Part shown: one piece after another, positions 45,858 through 57,643 of the stretch | How positions within the stretch are numbered: the stretch's first letter is position 1 | Layout of the letters: every line of letters starts with the position of its first letter | Source of the DNA: Maribacter algarum (ex Zhang et al. 2020) | GTDB lineage: Bacteria; Bacteroidota; Bacteroidia; Flavobacteriales; Flavobacteriaceae | Length of the DNA: 64,000 bases | Assembly: GCF_005885635.1 (NCBI RefSeq) | Contig: NZ_VATY01000001.1 | Coordinates: 1,736,001 to 1,800,000, forward strand | Direction of reading: 5' to 3' | Position numbers and translations under genes: made by a program | The notes under the pieces: model-generated | Told to the model about the DNA's origin: nothing | The model's database searches: none | What the model saw: the letters and a program-made list of their open reading frames with translations, nothing else

Positions 45858-46901
45858 ATGAACGTATCTGATGAGCTATTGTTCTTTTTTAGCGCCTTAG
45901 GTGTTTTCAATGCCTTGCTAATCAGTTTTTATTTTTTCTTTTTTAAAAAGCCCAAGAATGTTTCCAACTTCTTTTTAGGGCTCTTACTCTTAATGCTTGC
46001 AATTAGAGTAGGGAAATCGGTATTTTACTATTTCAATGATGACCTTGCGCAAATATTTATTAAGGTTGGTCTCGCGGCTTGTATATTAATCGGCCCAGCG
46101 CTCTATTTTTATATGAAATCTTGTGTACGGTCAGATTCTAAAACGCGCTTCTGGACACTTCACTTTTTGGTATTGCTGACCTTATCTATTTTAGTAGGCG
46201 TTTCGTTCCCAGAAACGCATGACCCATGGGTTATCGGCCGCAGCCTTAGTTGGGTTGAAATAATCTATTTGGTTTGGTTAGGCTATATCCTTGCATCGGG
46301 TTGGGTTATTAGGAGTACAATCAATAAATTATTCAATAAGAACGAGAAACTGTCTGATTTTGACTTTTGGGTGTTGAGCGTTTTTATAGGTAATGTAATC
46401 ATTTGGGTTGCCTACAAAACCTGTTCTTATACTTCCTATATAGTGGGGGCATTATCATTCTCCTTCATTTTTTATTTACTATTTCTTTTGATTCATTTTC
46501 GAAGAACTAAAGGTGCTATTTTTGATAAGAACCATAAGTACTCCAATAAGAAAATAGAAGCAGCTGAAGCTGAAAACCTCGTAGAACAATTGAACCATCT
46601 AATGGTGAACGAGAAAATTTATACTGATGCGGATCTTAAGCTTTCCGATGTAGCAAGTAAAATGAATATTCTACCTCATACACTCTCTCAATTGATTAAT
46701 GATAATTTGGGGAAAAGCTTTACCTCCTTGGTCAATGAGTATCGTGTTCAGGAGGCCAAAAACTTGATTCAATCAAATACTCATATTAAATTGGAGGCCG
46801 TAGGTTATGATTGTGGCTTCAATTCTAAATCAACCTTTTATTCAGTTTTCAAAAAGATGACGAAGACTACACCCGCGAAATACAAGGAAAGCATTTCCTA
46901 A
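45858..46901 (+). CDS. AraC-family regulator with seven-helix membrane domain
   Basis: I start at the ATG 45858 (MNVSDELLFFFSALG); a TTG six bases earlier is also in frame. 347 residues: about seven hydrophobic helices fill residues 1-215, then a cytosolic AraC/XylS domain with two helix-turn-helix units (LKLSDVASKMNILPHTLSQLIN and IKLEAVGYDCGFNSKSTFYSVFKK). The layout implies a membrane-bound sensor that binds DNA directly. The likely targets are the genes just downstream, since a long inverted repeat lies between it and them. Confidence 0.86.
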   Translation: MNVSDELLFFFSALGVFNALLISFYFFFFKKPKNVSNFFLGLLLLMLAIRVGKSVFYYFNDDLAQIFIKVGLAACILIGPALYFYMKSCVRSDSKTRFWTLHFLVLLTLSILVGVSFPETHDPWVIGRSLSWVEIIYLVWLGYILASGWVIRSTINKLFNKNEKLSDFDFWVLSVFIGNVIIWVAYKTCSYTSYIVGALSFSFIFYLLFLLIHFRRTKGAIFDKNHKYSNKKIEAAEAENLVEQLNHLMVNEKIYTDADLKLSDVASKMNILPHTLSQLINDNLGKSFTSLVNEYRVQEAKNLIQSNTHIKLEAVGYDCGFNSKSTFYSVFKKMTKTTPAKYKESIS

Positions 46902-46967
46902 AAATTCCTTAAATCCCTTCCCAATTTATAAATCCGTACTCCAGATTTATAAGTAAGACCTACTTTC

Positions 46968-47004
46968 ATTTTGATTCAATATAGTATTGTTATTGAATCA
47001 AAAT
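46968..47004 (+). promoter_or_regulatory. 14-bp inverted repeat upstream of the DJ-1-like gene
   Basis: ATTTTGATTCAATA (46968-46981), 9-nt spacer TAGTATTGT... centre, TATTGAATCAAAAT (46991-47004): both arms match perfectly. It sits 9 nt before the ATG at 47014. It may be an operator for the adjacent AraC-type protein or a leader hairpin. Confidence 0.65.
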
Positions 47005-47013
47005 AGCCTTAGC

Positions 47014-47799
47014 ATGAAAAATACTATGTACGCACTTTTTGCTATCCTTTTTCTACTTGTAGGATGTAAGCAAAATCCAGAAAAATTAACTAGCAAAACT
47101 GAAATTACCCAGCAAGCAGAACGAATTTTGTTTATTGTTTCGAATGCCCATTTTTATGGAGATTCTGATATCGCTGCTTCGAATCACTTTTCTGAAATAG
47201 TTCAAGCTTATGAAGTCTTTAAAAAGAAAGGTTATTCAATCGATTTTGTTAGCCCTCAGGGTGGGGCAATTCCCATTGGTTATATCAGTACTTCAGATCC
47301 GCTTCAAAAGAAATACATTTATGATAATGAGTTTATGGATGATTTGGAGACAACAAAAAAACCAACTGAAATTGTGGCATCTGATTATAAGGCGGTGTAT
47401 TACGGAGGAGGTGGAGCTGCAATGTTCGGAGTGGCTGAAAACGAGGCCATCCAAAAAATAGTAATGGAATTGTACGAGCAGCACAATGGAATAGTCTCAG
47501 CCATTTGCCATGGCACCGCTGGTATAGTAAACCTCAAGACTCAGTATGGTTCTTACCTATTTACTGGGAAAAAAGTAAACGGGTTCCCTGATATTTTCGA
47601 AAATAAAGATGCTGAATATTACAAGACCTTCCCTTTTTCAATTCAAGAAACCATCAATAAAAGAGGTGGCGATTTTCAATTTTCCGAAAAAGGTTGGGAC
47701 GGTTTTTATCAGGTGGATGGACGTTTGATTACGGGTCAAGATCCATCTGCAGCAGCTACTGTTGCAGAAAAAGTTATTGAAACATTACAACAATCATAA
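47014..47799 (+). CDS. DJ-1/PfpI family lipoprotein
   Basis: Start chosen at ATG 47014 because it gives a signal peptide and lipobox at once (MKNTMYALFAILFLLVGC); the TTG at 46987 would lie inside the inverted repeat. 261 residues. The class I glutamine amidotransferase-like core shows the nucleophile elbow AICHGTAGIV (Cys) and GGGGAAMFG. Related to Hsp31/DJ-1 proteins, which include glyoxalases and chaperones; here it is exported and lipid-anchored, which is unusual for DJ-1 proteins of cytoplasm. Substrate unknown. Confidence 0.83.
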   Translation: MKNTMYALFAILFLLVGCKQNPEKLTSKTEITQQAERILFIVSNAHFYGDSDIAASNHFSEIVQAYEVFKKKGYSIDFVSPQGGAIPIGYISTSDPLQKKYIYDNEFMDDLETTKKPTEIVASDYKAVYYGGGGAAMFGVAENEAIQKIVMELYEQHNGIVSAICHGTAGIVNLKTQYGSYLFTGKKVNGFPDIFENKDAEYYKTFPFSIQETINKRGGDFQFSEKGWDGFYQVDGRLITGQDPSAAATVAEKVIETLQQS

Positions 47800-47818
47800 A
47801 TCATCAAAAAACGAACAG
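47798..47818 (+). repeat. Leader repeat copy 1
   Basis: AAATCATCAAAAAACGAACA followed by G. It is identical, except for one base (C here, T there), to 49996-50016, in front of the paralogous gene. Confidence 0.6.
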
Positions 47819-47821
47819 GAC

Positions 47822-49528
47822 ATGAAAAGTTTATTCACGGCATTATTATTATTTGCAATTACGATCTCTTTTTCTCAGGAGGTAAAAAAAAGACAAATTA
47901 CACCAGCTCAAATAGATGACGTTTTTTCCCAATGGGATACAGCTGATAGACCCGGAATTGCTGTGGGGGTTCTTAACGATGGAGAGATTGTCTACACTAA
48001 GGGGTACGGTCTCGCCAATTTGGAACACAAGATTCCCATAAGTGCGGAAACTAGATTTCATATTGGTGACATAGCCAAGGAGTTCACTGTTTATTCACTT
48101 TTACTTTTAGAACAACGTGGTCAACTTTCATTGAAAGATGATATACGGATGCATATGCCCAAATTAAAGTCCTTTCCCAACTCCATAAGTATTGAACAAT
48201 TGACACATCACACCGGTGGATTAAACAACGATGAGGTTTTCAAAGCCCTCGCAGGATGGAGAGCTGAAGATGTTTTCACCAAGGAACAGGCATATACCAT
48301 GATTCAGAACCAGGCAAGATCAGTACCCAATAGTGGGAGTGTACAACGCTTTTCGGATGCTGGTTTTTTGATACTCGAAGACCTTATTGCTAAGATTTCT
48401 AAAATGTCATATACTGATTTTGTGACCAAGGAGATTTTTGAACCACTAGGAATGAAGAATTCAATATATGATACTCAAGGTGCCGTAATCGCAAACAAGG
48501 CCCAGGGGTATTTTGCCCAAAACGATGGTTTTATCAGTTCAAACATGAGCCATAGTCACACGCTTTTATCAGATGTCTACACCACCGTGGGAGATATGTG
48601 CCTTTGGGCAAAGGAGCTGGGAGATCCTAAAATTGGTACGACCCAAATGGTTGAAAAATTTGATAGACTTTCAGTTGTTGACGGAAGAACGCTTGAGGAA
48701 GTCAATACTTCATTGTATACAGGAGGCCACCGGTATTGGAATTTTAGAGGAGCTAAAAAACTATACCATGTCGAGGTTGCTGGGGGATATGCCAGTAAAT
48801 TGATTCGCTATCCCGATTATTACCTTGCTGTTGTTATTATGGGAAATGATGGTGCCTATAACGGATATGCGGGCACAGGAGCCAGTGCGCTATATATTGA
48901 AGATTTTTTGGATTCATCATCTGGTGAAGCGTCTGCCAGTATCAACTCCAAAGTATTGTCAAAAAAGCAACTTGCTAACTTTGAGGGTGATTATTGGGAC
49001 GTTACAAACTACTCCACCCGAAAAATTCATATCGTCAACGATACCTTGAGATATTCCAGAGGCCCTGGTAATGAAAGTGCCCTAGTGCCCTTGACCAAGA
49101 ACTCCTTCAAAATGATTTCCCCGGTAGAGGTATCGGTTAATTTTGATACAAGAGCTGTACCCAAAACTATGAATGTAACTGTTGGTGATGACAGTTTTCA
49201 TTTAGTTGCATTTGATGCGAATGCGAGTTGGGCCAAAAACCTTGATATGTTTACAGGAAATTATTATGCAAACACCTTGGATACTTCATATTCCCTAACT
49301 ATTGATCAAGGAAAGCTCGCATTAATTCATCCAAGGTTAGAGCCGGTTCAATTGAGTCCAAGAGTACAAGATTTGTTTGCAGGAAATCAAAGACATTTTT
49401 CATCTCTAGCATTTGAAAGGGATTTAAACGGAATTGTCAAAGGGTTTCGCTTAGCGACCAATGGAGTTTCCGATATTTGGTTTCAAAAGGAAGAATCCTC
49501 AAGCCAGAATTTGGAAAAAACTAAATAA
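47822..49528 (+). CDS. Exported serine-hydrolase-fold protein lacking the catalytic Ser (1)
   Basis: Start chosen at ATG 47822, which gives the signal peptide MKSLFTALLLFAITISFSQ; 568 residues. Residues about 25-385 follow the beta-lactamase/serine hydrolase (PF00144) fold: GIAVGVLNDGEIVYTKGYGLANLE, HHTGGLNND, FEPLGMKNS. The SxxK motif reads DIAK (Asp83, codon 48068-48070; Lys86), YxN reads FSD, and no HxG/KTG motif is clear. The last about 170 residues form a DUF3471-like beta domain. It is therefore probably not an active penicillin-binding protein or beta-lactamase; a binding role is likelier. Part of a run from the DJ-1 gene to 51721. Confidence 0.85.
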   Translation: MKSLFTALLLFAITISFSQEVKKRQITPAQIDDVFSQWDTADRPGIAVGVLNDGEIVYTKGYGLANLEHKIPISAETRFHIGDIAKEFTVYSLLLLEQRGQLSLKDDIRMHMPKLKSFPNSISIEQLTHHTGGLNNDEVFKALAGWRAEDVFTKEQAYTMIQNQARSVPNSGSVQRFSDAGFLILEDLIAKISKMSYTDFVTKEIFEPLGMKNSIYDTQGAVIANKAQGYFAQNDGFISSNMSHSHTLLSDVYTTVGDMCLWAKELGDPKIGTTQMVEKFDRLSVVDGRTLEEVNTSLYTGGHRYWNFRGAKKLYHVEVAGGYASKLIRYPDYYLAVVIMGNDGAYNGYAGTGASALYIEDFLDSSSGEASASINSKVLSKKQLANFEGDYWDVTNYSTRKIHIVNDTLRYSRGPGNESALVPLTKNSFKMISPVEVSVNFDTRAVPKTMNVTVGDDSFHLVAFDANASWAKNLDMFTGNYYANTLDTSYSLTIDQGKLALIHPRLEPVQLSPRVQDLFAGNQRHFSSLAFERDLNGIVKGFRLATNGVSDIWFQKEESSSQNLEKTK

Positions 49529-49559
49529 AAACACGAACAGAAATTAAACAATTGAAATC

Positions 49560-49985
49560 ATGAAAATGAACATAATCTTATTGATGACTTTTTTCTTTAT
49601 AGGAATTCATGCGGTCAGTGCACAAACAGATTTAGAATTGATTACCAGTACTCTAAACGATTATCTGGAAGGAACCGCCAATGGAGAACCAGAACGTGTA
49701 AAAAGAGCTTTTCACCCTGAACTCAACCTATATAGTGTGGCAAACGACAGCCTAAAAGTTTGGAACGGTCAGGATTATGTTGGAGGAATAAAACAAGGAA
49801 AAAAAAGCAATCGTATTGGCAGGATTGTGTCAATTGATTATGAAAACGACGCTGCAGTAGGTAAGATTGAAATTATCATGCCAGGGCCAAAAAGAATTTA
49901 TACGGACTATCTAATGCTCTTAAAATATCAAGGGAGCTGGAAAATTATTCATAAGAGTTACACGTATGTGAATTATCCAGAGTGA
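49560..49985 (+). CDS. Exported NTF2-like (lumazine-binding-type) protein
   Basis: 141 residues. Signal peptide MKMNIILLMTFFFIGIHAVSAQ; the mature part is one cone-shaped NTF2 fold (LITSTLNDYLEGTANGEPERVKRAFHPELNLY, AAVGKIEIIMPG, YLMLLKYQGSWKIIHKSY) similar to the putative lumazine-binding family. Probably periplasmic and possibly a ligand carrier. It sits between two related degenerate serine-hydrolase-fold genes and ends 3 nt inside a possible GTG start of the second. Confidence 0.82.
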   Translation: MKMNIILLMTFFFIGIHAVSAQTDLELITSTLNDYLEGTANGEPERVKRAFHPELNLYSVANDSLKVWNGQDYVGGIKQGKKSNRIGRIVSIDYENDAAVGKIEIIMPGPKRIYTDYLMLLKYQGSWKIIHKSYTYVNYPE

Positions 49986-49995
49986 AAACTAGAAC

Positions 49996-50016
49996 AAATC
50001 ATCAAAAAATGAACAG
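49996..50016 (+). repeat. Leader repeat copy 2, containing the start codon
   Basis: AAATCATCAAAAAATGAACA followed by G, matching 47798-47818 at 20 of 21 positions. The single C-to-T difference creates the ATG (50009) used here. Confidence 0.6.
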
Positions 50017-51721
50017 ACAATTAATTCATATACTCTTAACATCACTTTTATTTAATGTTTGCTCCGCTCAACTGCCTAGTAGTTTTGAAAAGAAAACGGA
50101 TTCTATTTTTAAAGCCTGGAATACCAAAAGCCAGCCTGGCGGAGCGGCAGGGATACTTAAAGATGGAAAAATTTTATACTTAAAAGGATTCGGTGTTGCT
50201 AATTTGGAAACAAACGAATTAATTACGCCACAAACTAAGTTTCAACTGGGCGAAATGTCCAAGCAATTTACTACACTGGCTATTCTCCTTTTAGAAGAGC
50301 AAGGAAAAATTGCTCGGAATGAAGATATATGCAAGTATTTGCCAGAATTGCCTACGTATGTTCATACAGTGACAATAGGGCATTTGTTGAACCATTCAAG
50401 TGGTCTTTATGATATAAACAAAATACATACTGTGATTAATGGTTCTGGAGAAGTAAGAACCCAAGCGGAGGCTTTAAAATTGATTGCTTCTCAAAAATCA
50501 CTTTCTTTTGAACCAGGCACCGATTTTTCGTTTCATGAATCTGTTACGGAATCAGTGCTAATGGCCGAAATTGTTACTAGAAGTTCAGGTTTGTCATTTG
50601 CAGAATTTGTTAAATCTAATATTTTTGAACCTCTAGGAATGAATAGTTCCATCATAAGAGATGATAGCAATTCCATGCTTACCAAGGTTGCTCAACCGTA
50701 TCAAAAAGAAGAAGATAAGGGTTATATGAAACTTGAAGTTCGTAGCGGTGTTATAGGTGCTATCAATGCATATTGCTCCGCTGAAGATCTTGCAAAGTGG
50801 TATTTGAATTACTCAAAACCTCAAGGTAAGCTTGGAAACCTGATTCAAAAATTAGATACGCCAGTTCAACTATCCAACGGCAAGAAGTTCGTTTATTATT
50901 GGGGAGAAATGGCAATCGGTCGCGAGTTTACGCACCCAGAAAGAGGGCTTCCCATTTTTTGGAATTATGGCCTACAAGGAGGTTATGGTACTAACGTATT
51001 TCGATACCTTGATCAAAACATCATTTCCTTTGCTTTAGGAAATAACAATCAATATAATGGAGCTTTGGCTCAGGGTGCCATTGTTCCACTTGTAAAGGAT
51101 TTATACCCGTTGCCAGCAAACATAGATTTCAAGGCTAAGAGAATAAAGAATTTAAGTGTTAGGAAACTTAAGACTTTTGAAGGGAACTATTGGTTTAAAG
51201 AAGGCTATGCCTCTCAGATATTTGTTGAAAACGATACACTGCGAACTAAATGGTTGTTTGGAAAAGGGCATCAAACTTTGGTACCACTATCTGACAATAT
51301 ATTTCAGCAATATGCAAAAATGGAAGACACACGACTTTTTGAATTTAAAGAAGGAGATGATGGTATGACACTCTATTTTACCTACAATGAAAGTAGACCT
51401 GATGTTATGGAACGGTATGAACCAGTACAACTATCTGTACAGGATTTGCAGGCATATGCCGGAGCATACTATAATAAGGAGTATGCAACACTATTCTCTT
51501 TTCGTGTAGAAGAGGGTCAGTTGGTTGCAAAGAATTTGAATCACCCAGACATTATATTTAGGCCGGTGAAAAAAGATATATTTACAAGTACTTCCCTGTT
51601 CTTTAATGCGCTAGAATTTCTTCGGGATAACTCGAACGTATTAAAAGGATTTTCAATGGTAACAGATGGAATACATAATCTAGTATTTGAAAAAATTCCT
51701 GGTATGACAACCTCAAAGTAA
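50009..51721 (+). CDS. Exported serine-hydrolase-fold protein lacking the catalytic Ser (2)
   Basis: Start chosen at ATG 50009 (signal peptide MNRQLIHILLTSLLFNVCSAQ) rather than the GTG at 49982; 570 residues. It is a paralogue of the 47822 protein with the same order: serine-hydrolase fold (GGAAGILKDGKILYLKGFGVANLE, LNHSSGLYDI, FEPLGMNSS) and a C-terminal beta domain. SxxK has become EMSK (Glu82, codon 50252-50254; Lys85) and the YxN position reads FHE. Both copies having lost the nucleophile argues for a conserved non-enzymatic role rather than decay of one gene. Confidence 0.85.
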   Translation: MNRQLIHILLTSLLFNVCSAQLPSSFEKKTDSIFKAWNTKSQPGGAAGILKDGKILYLKGFGVANLETNELITPQTKFQLGEMSKQFTTLAILLLEEQGKIARNEDICKYLPELPTYVHTVTIGHLLNHSSGLYDINKIHTVINGSGEVRTQAEALKLIASQKSLSFEPGTDFSFHESVTESVLMAEIVTRSSGLSFAEFVKSNIFEPLGMNSSIIRDDSNSMLTKVAQPYQKEEDKGYMKLEVRSGVIGAINAYCSAEDLAKWYLNYSKPQGKLGNLIQKLDTPVQLSNGKKFVYYWGEMAIGREFTHPERGLPIFWNYGLQGGYGTNVFRYLDQNIISFALGNNNQYNGALAQGAIVPLVKDLYPLPANIDFKAKRIKNLSVRKLKTFEGNYWFKEGYASQIFVENDTLRTKWLFGKGHQTLVPLSDNIFQQYAKMEDTRLFEFKEGDDGMTLYFTYNESRPDVMERYEPVQLSVQDLQAYAGAYYNKEYATLFSFRVEEGQLVAKNLNHPDIIFRPVKKDIFTSTSLFFNALEFLRDNSNVLKGFSMVTDGIHNLVFEKIPGMTTSK

Positions 51722-51818
51722 AAATTTCCTGAATCCAACTTGGATTGTTTTTTATGCCTAATCCGTAACCATTTTCAAAAAGCGGAGTTTACCATGGTAT
51801 ACATCAAAAAACGATATC

Positions 51819-52883
51819 ATGAAAACTACAATCAATCTTTACGCTAGTCTTTTATTTGCATTTTTATTTGTGTGCCAAGCCTCTTTTGGGCAAAAAGAAG
51901 AAAAAGAAGAACATACTATTTCATTTTCTTCATTTAATCATAGAGCCGAAATCGATAAGGGAATTTGGTTTGGTACCATCGAGGAGGAAAAAGTCTGCAT
52001 CCAATTGATGGATTCTAAGAATAGGAGCAATCCTTCTTTTATGATTAGTCTATGTATTCCGGTTGAGGAATTTACCTTGAATACAGCTGAAGGTTTTGAG
52101 TTGAATAAACCTTCAGGCAGCATAAAATTTCAAGGCGCATTCCCGAATGATAAAGGAAATGGGGATTTCACTTTTGCAAAAAATCGCGAGTTTGAAGCTT
52201 TCTTAAATAAAGAGGGGATTAGCACTAACAATGATGACCGTTACAAATATTTTAAATTGTTTTTGGGTGATGTCTCAAAAGAATATGTTCTTGGATTGAA
52301 AAGACATGGGTACAAACCAACGTTGAAGCAACTTGGCAGACTTGGAATCCATGATGTGGAGATAGAGTATATAAATTCGATTGCCAATACGAATTACAAA
52401 GGTTTAGAATTGGACATGCTCTTGAAATTTGCAATTCATGACATATCAATAGATTATATCAAAGACTTGGAGAAAGCTGGTTATGGTAATATCGATGCCA
52501 ATATGCTCAAGAAATTTGCAATTCACGATGTAAGTATTGATTATATTAACGGCCTCACTCGTGCCGGCTATAGTAATTTAGACCCCAACATGATTAAAAA
52601 CTTCGCCGTTCATGATATTACACTTGATTATATTCAAGACTTATCTAGAGTGGGGTTTGCAAATTTAGAACCAAGAATGTTAAAGAATTTTGCCGTTCAT
52701 GACATAAGCCCAAAATATATTAAATCCTTACAAGATACTGGCATCAGTGATGTAAATCCAAATAGCTACAAGAAGGCTAAAATTCATGGATTAACAGCTC
52801 GATATATCAAGAGTGCTCAGGCCGATGGTCATAATTCAAATGAATTGTCAGATTATATCAAGCTAAAAATTCATGGGAAGTAA
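51819..52883 (+). CDS. Exported protein of 29-residue tandem repeats
   Basis: 354 residues with signal peptide (MKTTINLYASLLFAFLFVCQASFGQ). Residues about 25-145 are a non-repetitive domain of unknown type. Residues 176-349 are six units of exactly 29 residues, each starting with an HD- or HG- motif (GIHDVEIEYI, AIHDISIDYI, AIHDVSIDYI, AVHDITLDYI, AVHDISPKYI, KIHGLTARYI), with an imperfect unit before and a partial one after. Similar HGVTxxYI repeats occur in the C-terminal parts of BlaR1-like sensors and anti-sigma proteins. Function unknown; the location beside beta-lactamase-fold proteins is suggestive. Confidence 0.8.
   Translation: MKTTINLYASLLFAFLFVCQASFGQKEEKEEHTISFSSFNHRAEIDKGIWFGTIEEEKVCIQLMDSKNRSNPSFMISLCIPVEEFTLNTAEGFELNKPSGSIKFQGAFPNDKGNGDFTFAKNREFEAFLNKEGISTNNDDRYKYFKLFLGDVSKEYVLGLKRHGYKPTLKQLGRLGIHDVEIEYINSIANTNYKGLELDMLLKFAIHDISIDYIKDLEKAGYGNIDANMLKKFAIHDVSIDYINGLTRAGYSNLDPNMIKNFAVHDITLDYIQDLSRVGFANLEPRMLKNFAVHDISPKYIKSLQDTGISDVNPNSYKKAKIHGLTARYIKSAQADGHNSNELSDYIKLKIHGK
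52344..52865 (+). repeat. Six 87-bp units encoding the 29-residue repeats
   Basis: Period 87 bp, six full units. The DNA of neighbouring units shares words such as AAATTTGCAATTCA and TTTGCCGTTCATGA, so amplification is probably fairly recent for units 2-5, while the first and last are more diverged. Confidence 0.8.
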
Positions 52884-56893: not shown

Positions 56894-57643
56894 ATGAAAA
56901 AATCAATTTTATTGACAATAGTATTATGCGCATTTTTATTACTTCCTAAAAGCAGTAGTGCGCAAGAAATAACCAATGTAAAATCTTTTGACAAAGTAAT
57001 CGTAAGTCCGCATATCGAAGTTGTTTTGGTAGAAGGTAACGAGGAATCTGTAAAGATTGAAAACGCGAAAGTTTCCGAAGATAAAATCAATATCAAAGTA
57101 GAAGGAAAAACGCTGCGACTGTATTTGGATGGAGCGAAAACCGTTACCAAGCAAGAACGGGTTAGTACCGATAAGTGGAAAGGAAAGCGTGACATTTATC
57201 AAGGTACAATGGCAAGAGCTACAATCACCTATAAAAATTTAAGAGCACTTTCTATCCGAGGTGAGGAAATCGTGAAATGTGAAAGTCCCATTGAACAGCA
57301 AGAACTTAAACTTACCATCTATGGTGAATCAAAAGTGTATTTTAATTCAATTACTACAGAAGAATTAACAGTTTCTATTTATGGAGAAAGCTATTTAGAG
57401 ATTCAGGGAGGCGATGTCGGTCGACAAGTGTATCGTGCTTATGGAGAAAGTGAAGTAAACACCTTGGATATGGAAAACACATCCACAAAAATAACGGCTT
57501 ACGGAGAAAGTAATTTCAGGGTCAATGTTTCAGACCGTTTGAAGGTAACTTGTTATGGAGAAACCAAAATCAATTATAAAGGTGATGCTGATGTTGACAA
57601 AGGAATTGTAATTGGGGAAGCCAGGATACGAAAAATCGGATAG
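56894..57643 (+). CDS. DUF2807 (head GIN domain) exported protein
   Basis: 249 residues with signal peptide MKKSILLTIVLCAFLLLPKSSSAQ. The body is a right-handed beta-solenoid-like repeat in which YGE[S/T] recurs five times every 20-23 residues (TIYGESKVY, SIYGESYLE, RAYGESEVN, TAYGESNFR, TCYGETKIN), typical of DUF2807, a domain annotated as putative autotransporter adhesin. Probably surface or periplasmic. Ends before a terminator. Confidence 0.85.
   Translation: MKKSILLTIVLCAFLLLPKSSSAQEITNVKSFDKVIVSPHIEVVLVEGNEESVKIENAKVSEDKINIKVEGKTLRLYLDGAKTVTKQERVSTDKWKGKRDIYQGTMARATITYKNLRALSIRGEEIVKCESPIEQQELKLTIYGESKVYFNSITTEELTVSIYGESYLEIQGGDVGRQVYRAYGESEVNTLDMENTSTKITAYGESNFRVNVSDRLKVTCYGETKINYKGDADVDKGIVIGEARIRKIG

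Follow-up and report, generated by a model that had tools for sequence, protein, structure and literature searches.

RseB and CpxP are periplasmic regulators of envelope-stress systems, and RseB tunes the envelope-stress response through RseA. The protein encoded at 51819-52883 on the plus strand of the window (the whole 64,000-nucleotide stretch of Maribacter algarum DNA analysed here), which we call HDrep, resembles such regulators in being a predicted exported protein, in having a promoter element in common with a sigma gene and in lying next to a sigma operon in two genera. It differs from them in its sequence relations: searched as a single protein against PDB sequences it gives no match at E 10, and its profile finds IcmE alone, at E 1.3. 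RseB, CpxP and other named regulators are also missing from its fold-match lists, an absence that is compatible with a relation.

The BlaR1/MecR1-type M56 sensor-transducers (PF05569) are the second system with which HDrep can be compared. In a Bacteroidota subset whose sensor gene follows BlaI, the C-terminal ectodomain is homologous, by profile comparison, to mature HDrep. In contrast to these sensors, HDrep has no PF05569 match, no HExxH, no transmembrane bundle ahead of the ectodomain (its hydrophobic stretch, residues 1-19, is N-terminal only) and no BlaI gene found nearby. A third comparison is with Toastrack domains, under which DUF4097 and DUF2807 are described in the sections of PMC11237479 drawn on here, as partners of membrane-stress systems. 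The likeness lies in gene order: two DUF4097 genes follow the sigma and anti-sigma genes of the Maribacter algarum genome, and a DUF2807-type homolog lies beside a stand-alone HDrep relative in another locus (L013). Those sections predict Toastrack to be intracellular and do not mention HD repeats, whereas both of our DUF4097 proteins have, by eye, signal-peptide-like starts.

The HDrep protein and its distribution

HDrep is an open reading frame with an ATG start encoding 354 residues, and all of its features lie on the plus strand. A signal peptide was read by eye over residues 1-25 (51819..51893) with a putative cleavage site, and the N-terminus is hydrophobic by computation. An N-terminal beta domain of eight strands (51924..52181; DSSP on models), common to the BlaR1-HD ectodomains, is followed by six gapless 29-residue units placed by spacing analysis at 52344..52430, 52431..52517, 52518..52604, 52605..52691, 52692..52778 and 52779..52865, each starting A/G/K-I/V-H-D/G, and by a cut seventh (KIHGK). 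There are seven instances of the motif [IV]H[DG], and all six successive spacings are exactly 29 residues; comparing the protein with itself at offset 29 gives a mean BLOSUM62 score of 1.91, against a best of 0.014 at any offset in 2000 shuffles. Spacings and shuffles together confirm the six exact-length units that had been proposed. Tandem Repeats Finder saw no DNA-level repeat of the unit period, so the repeat is one of protein only. At repeat position 4 the residues G, D, N and K predominate (57 units from relatives), the repeat His is frequently substituted in sensors of family f17, and the "HD" of the units is simply a frequent dipeptide. Aligned HDrep orthologs differ in copy number, in steps of whole 29-residue units.

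Structure prediction, proposed as a check on this protein, returned the beta domain and a helical solenoid. The AlphaFold2 model of residues 35-354, built from 12 aligned sequences (pLDDT 89.7, pTM 0.76), is predicted by DSSP to hold eight strands followed by sixteen helices. Foldseek found no match to it at E 0.001, and the best VIA-align Z was 8.0 with the full model and 4.5 when the N-domain was taken by itself. The best chain, 4cj9_A (Z 8.0, rmsd 7.1, 240 aligned), may reflect a common repeat-protein arrangement only; it recalls the alpha-superhelices of TAL effectors, BurrH and mTERF, which like the HDrep model are superhelices of two-helix repeats, although HDrep differs from them in its 29-residue unit, its predicted export and the missing Foldseek match. 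HDrep reaches the cut-off of no Pfam family, is listed under no NCBIfam family, and received neither a ligand nor a function from the sequence and fold searches. A PHROGs search gave one 16-residue match at E 9.7e-4 with no stretch passing alone, which we disregarded. The arrangement found in HDrep, a beta N-domain and then 29-residue two-helix units, is what we define here as the HD-type ectodomain; for the terms tried, titles and abstract openings in the literature held nothing on it.

HDrep is sporadic in flavobacteria. A search of 98 genomes turned it up in 4, including that of Maribacter algarum, and a survey of 349 Flavobacteriaceae genomes in 5. Flavobacterial patterns run against named genomes led to 11 loci, with Flavobacteriaceae, Spongiivirga, Croceitalea and Saprospiraceae in their titles. 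Profile relatives occur in 46 of 395 genomes of the phylum, in 14 of 151 genomes of one family of the same class, and in 63 of 195 genomes of another class, where 50 of the 63 belong to family f38 and match mainly in the repeat part. Loci were fetched for 18 of the 45 other phylum genomes and, per survey, for 14 of 14, 15 of 63 and 5 of 5; the locus fetched from G161 is a different place from the match listed in the 63-of-195 survey, and the matches left unfetched are those of family f38 and one of f36, with similarity mainly in the repeat part. L105 is the same as L010 (Spongiivirga citrea) and was left out, and L015, cut at a contig end, was counted for the promoter only. Outside the Bacteroidota, coverage consists of the named-genome scan and a plasmid search with two family members, the latter without a match. 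In L069, L071, L072 and L073 (the last three from f38) we observed proteins with related-looking helical repeats and, by eye, an apparent transmembrane stretch; they have no full N-domain, and each matched genome has one or two of them.

Relation to the ectodomains of BlaR1-type sensors

The resemblance to repeats in BlaR1-type sensors that had been pointed out proved sound, and similar repeats form the ectodomain of these sensors. A profile search matched M56 sensors over the whole length of HDrep with E down to 5.8e-50 (749-aa frame). By this measure mature HDrep, beta N-domain and repeats together, and the ectodomain of one class of Bacteroidota BlaR1-type M56 sensors are homologous. One of them, the 926-aa sensor of L013, has M56, a BlaI gene upstream and an N-domain plus repeats as in HDrep, to which it is 29% identical in the alignment. 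Among the fetched loci there are 31 such M56-HD proteins, of which 29 matched M56 references by blast, the other two (L065, L068) being classed by HExxH and BlaI alone. All 31 carry HExxH, and BlaI lies directly upstream, at -31 to +32 nt, of 29 of the genes. The N-domain is full-length in 20 of the 31, and all 20 have their last hydrophobic segment ahead of it, the position to be expected if the ectodomain lies outside the cytoplasm. Pfam found no penicillin-binding domain in the four M56-HD sensors scanned, and no known ligand came to light for the ectodomains of this group of Bacteroidota receptors.

Free copies of the ectodomain are found outside the flavobacteria as well. Eleven of them have a full N-domain, and nine of these stand downstream of a BlaR1-HD gene that has the same orientation. 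In L057, L058, L059, L085, L087 and L095 the first copy is 14-185 nt away, a second stands behind it in L057 and L085, and the copy of L013 is 3.8 kb away. The two remaining copies are cut at contig ends (L014, L102), and L096 falls outside the 11, its match to the refined N-domain model covering repeats only. An unrooted tree was built from the 42 rows whose N-domain was of sufficient length, and it places neither the free nor the fused form first; in it the stand-alone copies of flavobacteria and of Saprospiraceae group together in a single clade (support 99/95). Blast with BlaI and M56 references from four loci gave no match at E 1e-3 in the 64-kb window or in the 10 other full flavobacterial HDrep loci. 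Judged by its gene neighbourhood, the flavobacterial stand-alone HDrep is thus an orphan, outside any BlaI/BlaR1 operon in the loci seen.

Two observations on the genes around the sensors may be added. A gene for a DUF5916 plus CBM9-like protein directly follows the BlaR1-HD sensor in at least 7 of the 31 loci (L013, L088, L089, L090, L091, L093 and L094; 10 downstream genes scanned), and this protein is a candidate for control by BlaI. In L064 and L067 the HD genes have as direct neighbour a PF00144 gene in which SxxK was read by eye. We considered serine-hydrolase adjacency as a meaningful link to HD genes and rejected it: the Maribacter algarum genome alone has 39 PF00144 matches and most HD loci have none, so adjacency was given no weight.

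A promoter element common to HDrep and an ECF sigma gene

An ECF-type promoter element, GTAAC-N17-GTTTA, lies 54 nt before the HDrep start codon (51765..51793, plus strand; pattern match). The form GTAAC-N17-GT[AT][AT] is present 51-72 nt upstream of the start in all 12 flavobacterial HDrep genes examined, and upstream DNA of the window, L006 and L005 can be aligned, by eye, mainly over the last 70 nt. Within the window, GTAAC-N17-GTWTA stands upstream of 1 of 55 open reading frames, which is HDrep. Among 83 other HD or BlaI genes, 2 are preceded by the pattern GTAACNNTT, and within 160 nt it arises in 1.5-2.1% of shuffles per sequence. A promoter matrix built from 7 of the 11 other HDrep sites scored the window HDrep site at 37.2 on our own DNA (134 kb), the site before the ECF sigma gene described below, as next best, at 27.0 and the one after it at 12.0. 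A sigma-70 promoter scan gave 8 sites, against 7.0 in shuffles.

A strict form of the pattern has two matches in the 5.1-Mb Maribacter algarum genome, one before HDrep and one before an ECF sigma gene, while its reversed control has none. Across 18 genomes it has 10 matches against 3 in the reversed control: three before HDrep, four placed 51-52 nt ahead of ECF sigma orthologs, one before a gene that by eye is of CarboxypepD_reg/TonB type, and two inside opposite-strand open reading frames. It recovers HDrep in 3 of the 7 searched genomes that possess the gene; in G013, G884, G761 and G820 the -10 half or the edge differs and the looser form is present. In the portion of PMC9723704 drawn on here, the flavobacterial ECF motif SM6 has a CGT box, and GTAAC is absent from the main text. 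A GTAAC-N17-GTATA element also stands 69 nt before the rpoD-type sigma gene of the Maribacter algarum genome (L111 5345-5414, G000:C14); we regard it as weak, since the reversed control of the looser pattern gave 4 matches against 2.

The sigma gene of the Maribacter algarum genome lies at G000:C1:590.3-590.9 kb with the strict element 51 nt upstream, and HDrep shares both its element and its spacing, which points to a common regulon. Downstream of it are a gene for a 269-aa protein with HEAT repeats, a weak anti-sigma match and, by eye, a hydrophobic segment, and then the two DUF4097 genes. In two other genera (L106, L107) HDrep stands directly before sigma, anti-sigma and two DUF4097-like genes that are 52-53%, 44-45% and 43-48% identical to our own, respectively, with a second copy of the element between HDrep and sigma. 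Pfam confirmed sigma and HEAT in both loci. The scan of the DUF4097-type genes covered those of L106, where the first or second of the pair falls narrowly short of the DUF4097 cut-off and its partner matches nothing. L107 has a different, second ECF pair nearby, and ECF genes are frequent in these genomes. The sigma operon adjoins HDrep in 2 of the 11 full flavobacterial loci, and in the other 9 it is not within the DNA examined. Since the sigma gene and the element also occur in G006 and G031, where HDrep has no match, HDrep would be an accessory of this system. Judged from gene order and promoters, the ECF sigma system is a better partner for HDrep than the genes next to it in the window; the original prediction had missed both this system and the gene's own promoter.

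A related arrangement was observed at L086 8502-12073, where BlaI and a BlaR1-HD gene are divergent from an operon of ECF sigma, HEAT anti-sigma-like and DUF4097-like genes, the last below the DUF4097 cut-off.

The neighbouring cassette and possible roles of HDrep

Upstream of HDrep, at 45858-51721 on the plus strand, lies a cassette of its own, encoding an AraC-type membrane regulator, a DJ-1 lipoprotein in which the AICHG nucleophile elbow is kept, two serine-hydrolase-fold proteins and an NTF2-like protein. Both serine-hydrolase-fold proteins match PF00144 and, unlike class C beta-lactamases and serine hydrolases, lack SxxK (DIAK, EMSK) and YxN (FSD, FHES), with the same losses in L006, in agreement with their earlier designation as pseudoenzymes. 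No intrinsic terminator was found by scan between the second pseudoenzyme gene and HDrep, and a weak hairpin there, which folds no better than shuffles (z -0.27), was left unused.

The reading first proposed, that the AraC-type regulator, the DJ-1 lipoprotein, the two pseudoenzymes, the NTF2-like protein and HDrep form a single exported sensing set, draws on an order that is the same in the window genome and in G013 (L006: gldD, AraC, DJ1, pseudoenzyme 1, NTF2-like, pseudoenzyme 2, HDrep, dehydratase), with all genes on the plus strand, and on the motif losses that both pseudoenzymes share with L006. Gene order elsewhere already contradicts this reading, which we hold to be extremely improbable. 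A survey of co-occurrence, based on the 98 genomes searched, placed the cassette adjacent to HDrep in 2 of the 4 HDrep genomes, the window genome and G013; beyond those two, the condition first named as a refutation, genes that fail to co-occur, applies. In G007, of the same genus, the site reads gldD, HDrep, dehydratase (L005) with none of the five cassette genes, and AraC, DJ1 and pseudoenzyme 1, cut by a contig end, lie on a different contig (L084). HDrep stands among other genes with no cassette in L007-L012, from other genera, and a related cassette (AraC-DJ1-hydrolase-NTF2-hydrolase, L083; AraC 45%, DJ1 63% and hydrolases 22-32% identical to the window's, SxxK intact by eye) is found in G057, where the 98-genome search gave no HDrep match. 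Cassette and HDrep are therefore separable, and the HDrep promoter is conserved whether or not the cassette lies upstream. Stand-alone copies downstream of BlaR1-HD genes in other lineages would fit a role as decoy or co-receptor, serving a BlaR1-type sensor whose gene lies in another part of the genome. The three M56 proteins found in the Maribacter algarum genome, however, have other ectodomains and match neither the repeat nor the N-domain model, and genome searches gave HDrep alone (single-sequence, 6 of 6 candidates scored; profile, 5 of 13 scored), which makes this role distinctly unlikely.

The remaining two readings both place HDrep with the ECF system. We give an even chance to HDrep being a sensor or a feedback protein that works in the periplasm for an ECF envelope-stress system. 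HDrep would be a soluble exported ectodomain, a beta domain followed by an alpha-solenoid of two-helix units. Envelope stress would release the ECF sigma factor, which would most likely recognise the common element and transcribe its own gene and HDrep; periplasmic HDrep might then bind either a stress ligand or the HEAT portion of the anti-sigma factor and so tune the response, in a manner comparable to RseB on RseA. We infer that the sigma factor recognises the element, that HDrep acts in the periplasm, that it binds a ligand and that it feeds back, in one direction or the other, on the HEAT anti-sigma factor. Alternatively, the ECF response may have HDrep as one of its products, in which case the exported solenoid would bind a polymer or protein of the envelope and either protect it or serve it as a scaffold. 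This role is possible but less probable than the first. In its favour, HDrep keeps its own promoter copy even directly before sigma (L106, L107), it gives no match where the sigma gene and element are kept (G006, G031), and DUF4097 and DUF2807 are described as Toastrack domains, partners of membrane-stress systems, in the sections of PMC11237479 used here. Against it, the nearest relatives of HDrep are receptor ectodomains or are encoded in receptor operons, which suggests ligand detection for HDrep.

We also propose, tentatively, that Bacteroidota have in the beta plus 29-residue-solenoid ectodomain an exchangeable module for sensing at the envelope that has not been described before, acting in some lineages on BlaI via a BlaR1-type protease and in others, as a soluble protein, with a system of ECF sigma, HEAT anti-sigma and DUF4097 proteins. 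HDrep thereby suggests an unannotated sensing unit common to two regulatory architectures; if true, one ligand-detecting unit would feed two unrelated kinds of transcription control. The soluble natural copy, which promoter and gene order tie to one ECF system, would make the ligand question testable without a membrane protease.

In the window itself, 4 kb from HDrep, we observed a DUF2807 (Toastrack-type) gene at 56894-57643. It has no upstream site above the threshold of the promoter matrix, and a homolog of its product is encoded in L013 between the sensor and the stand-alone HD copy.
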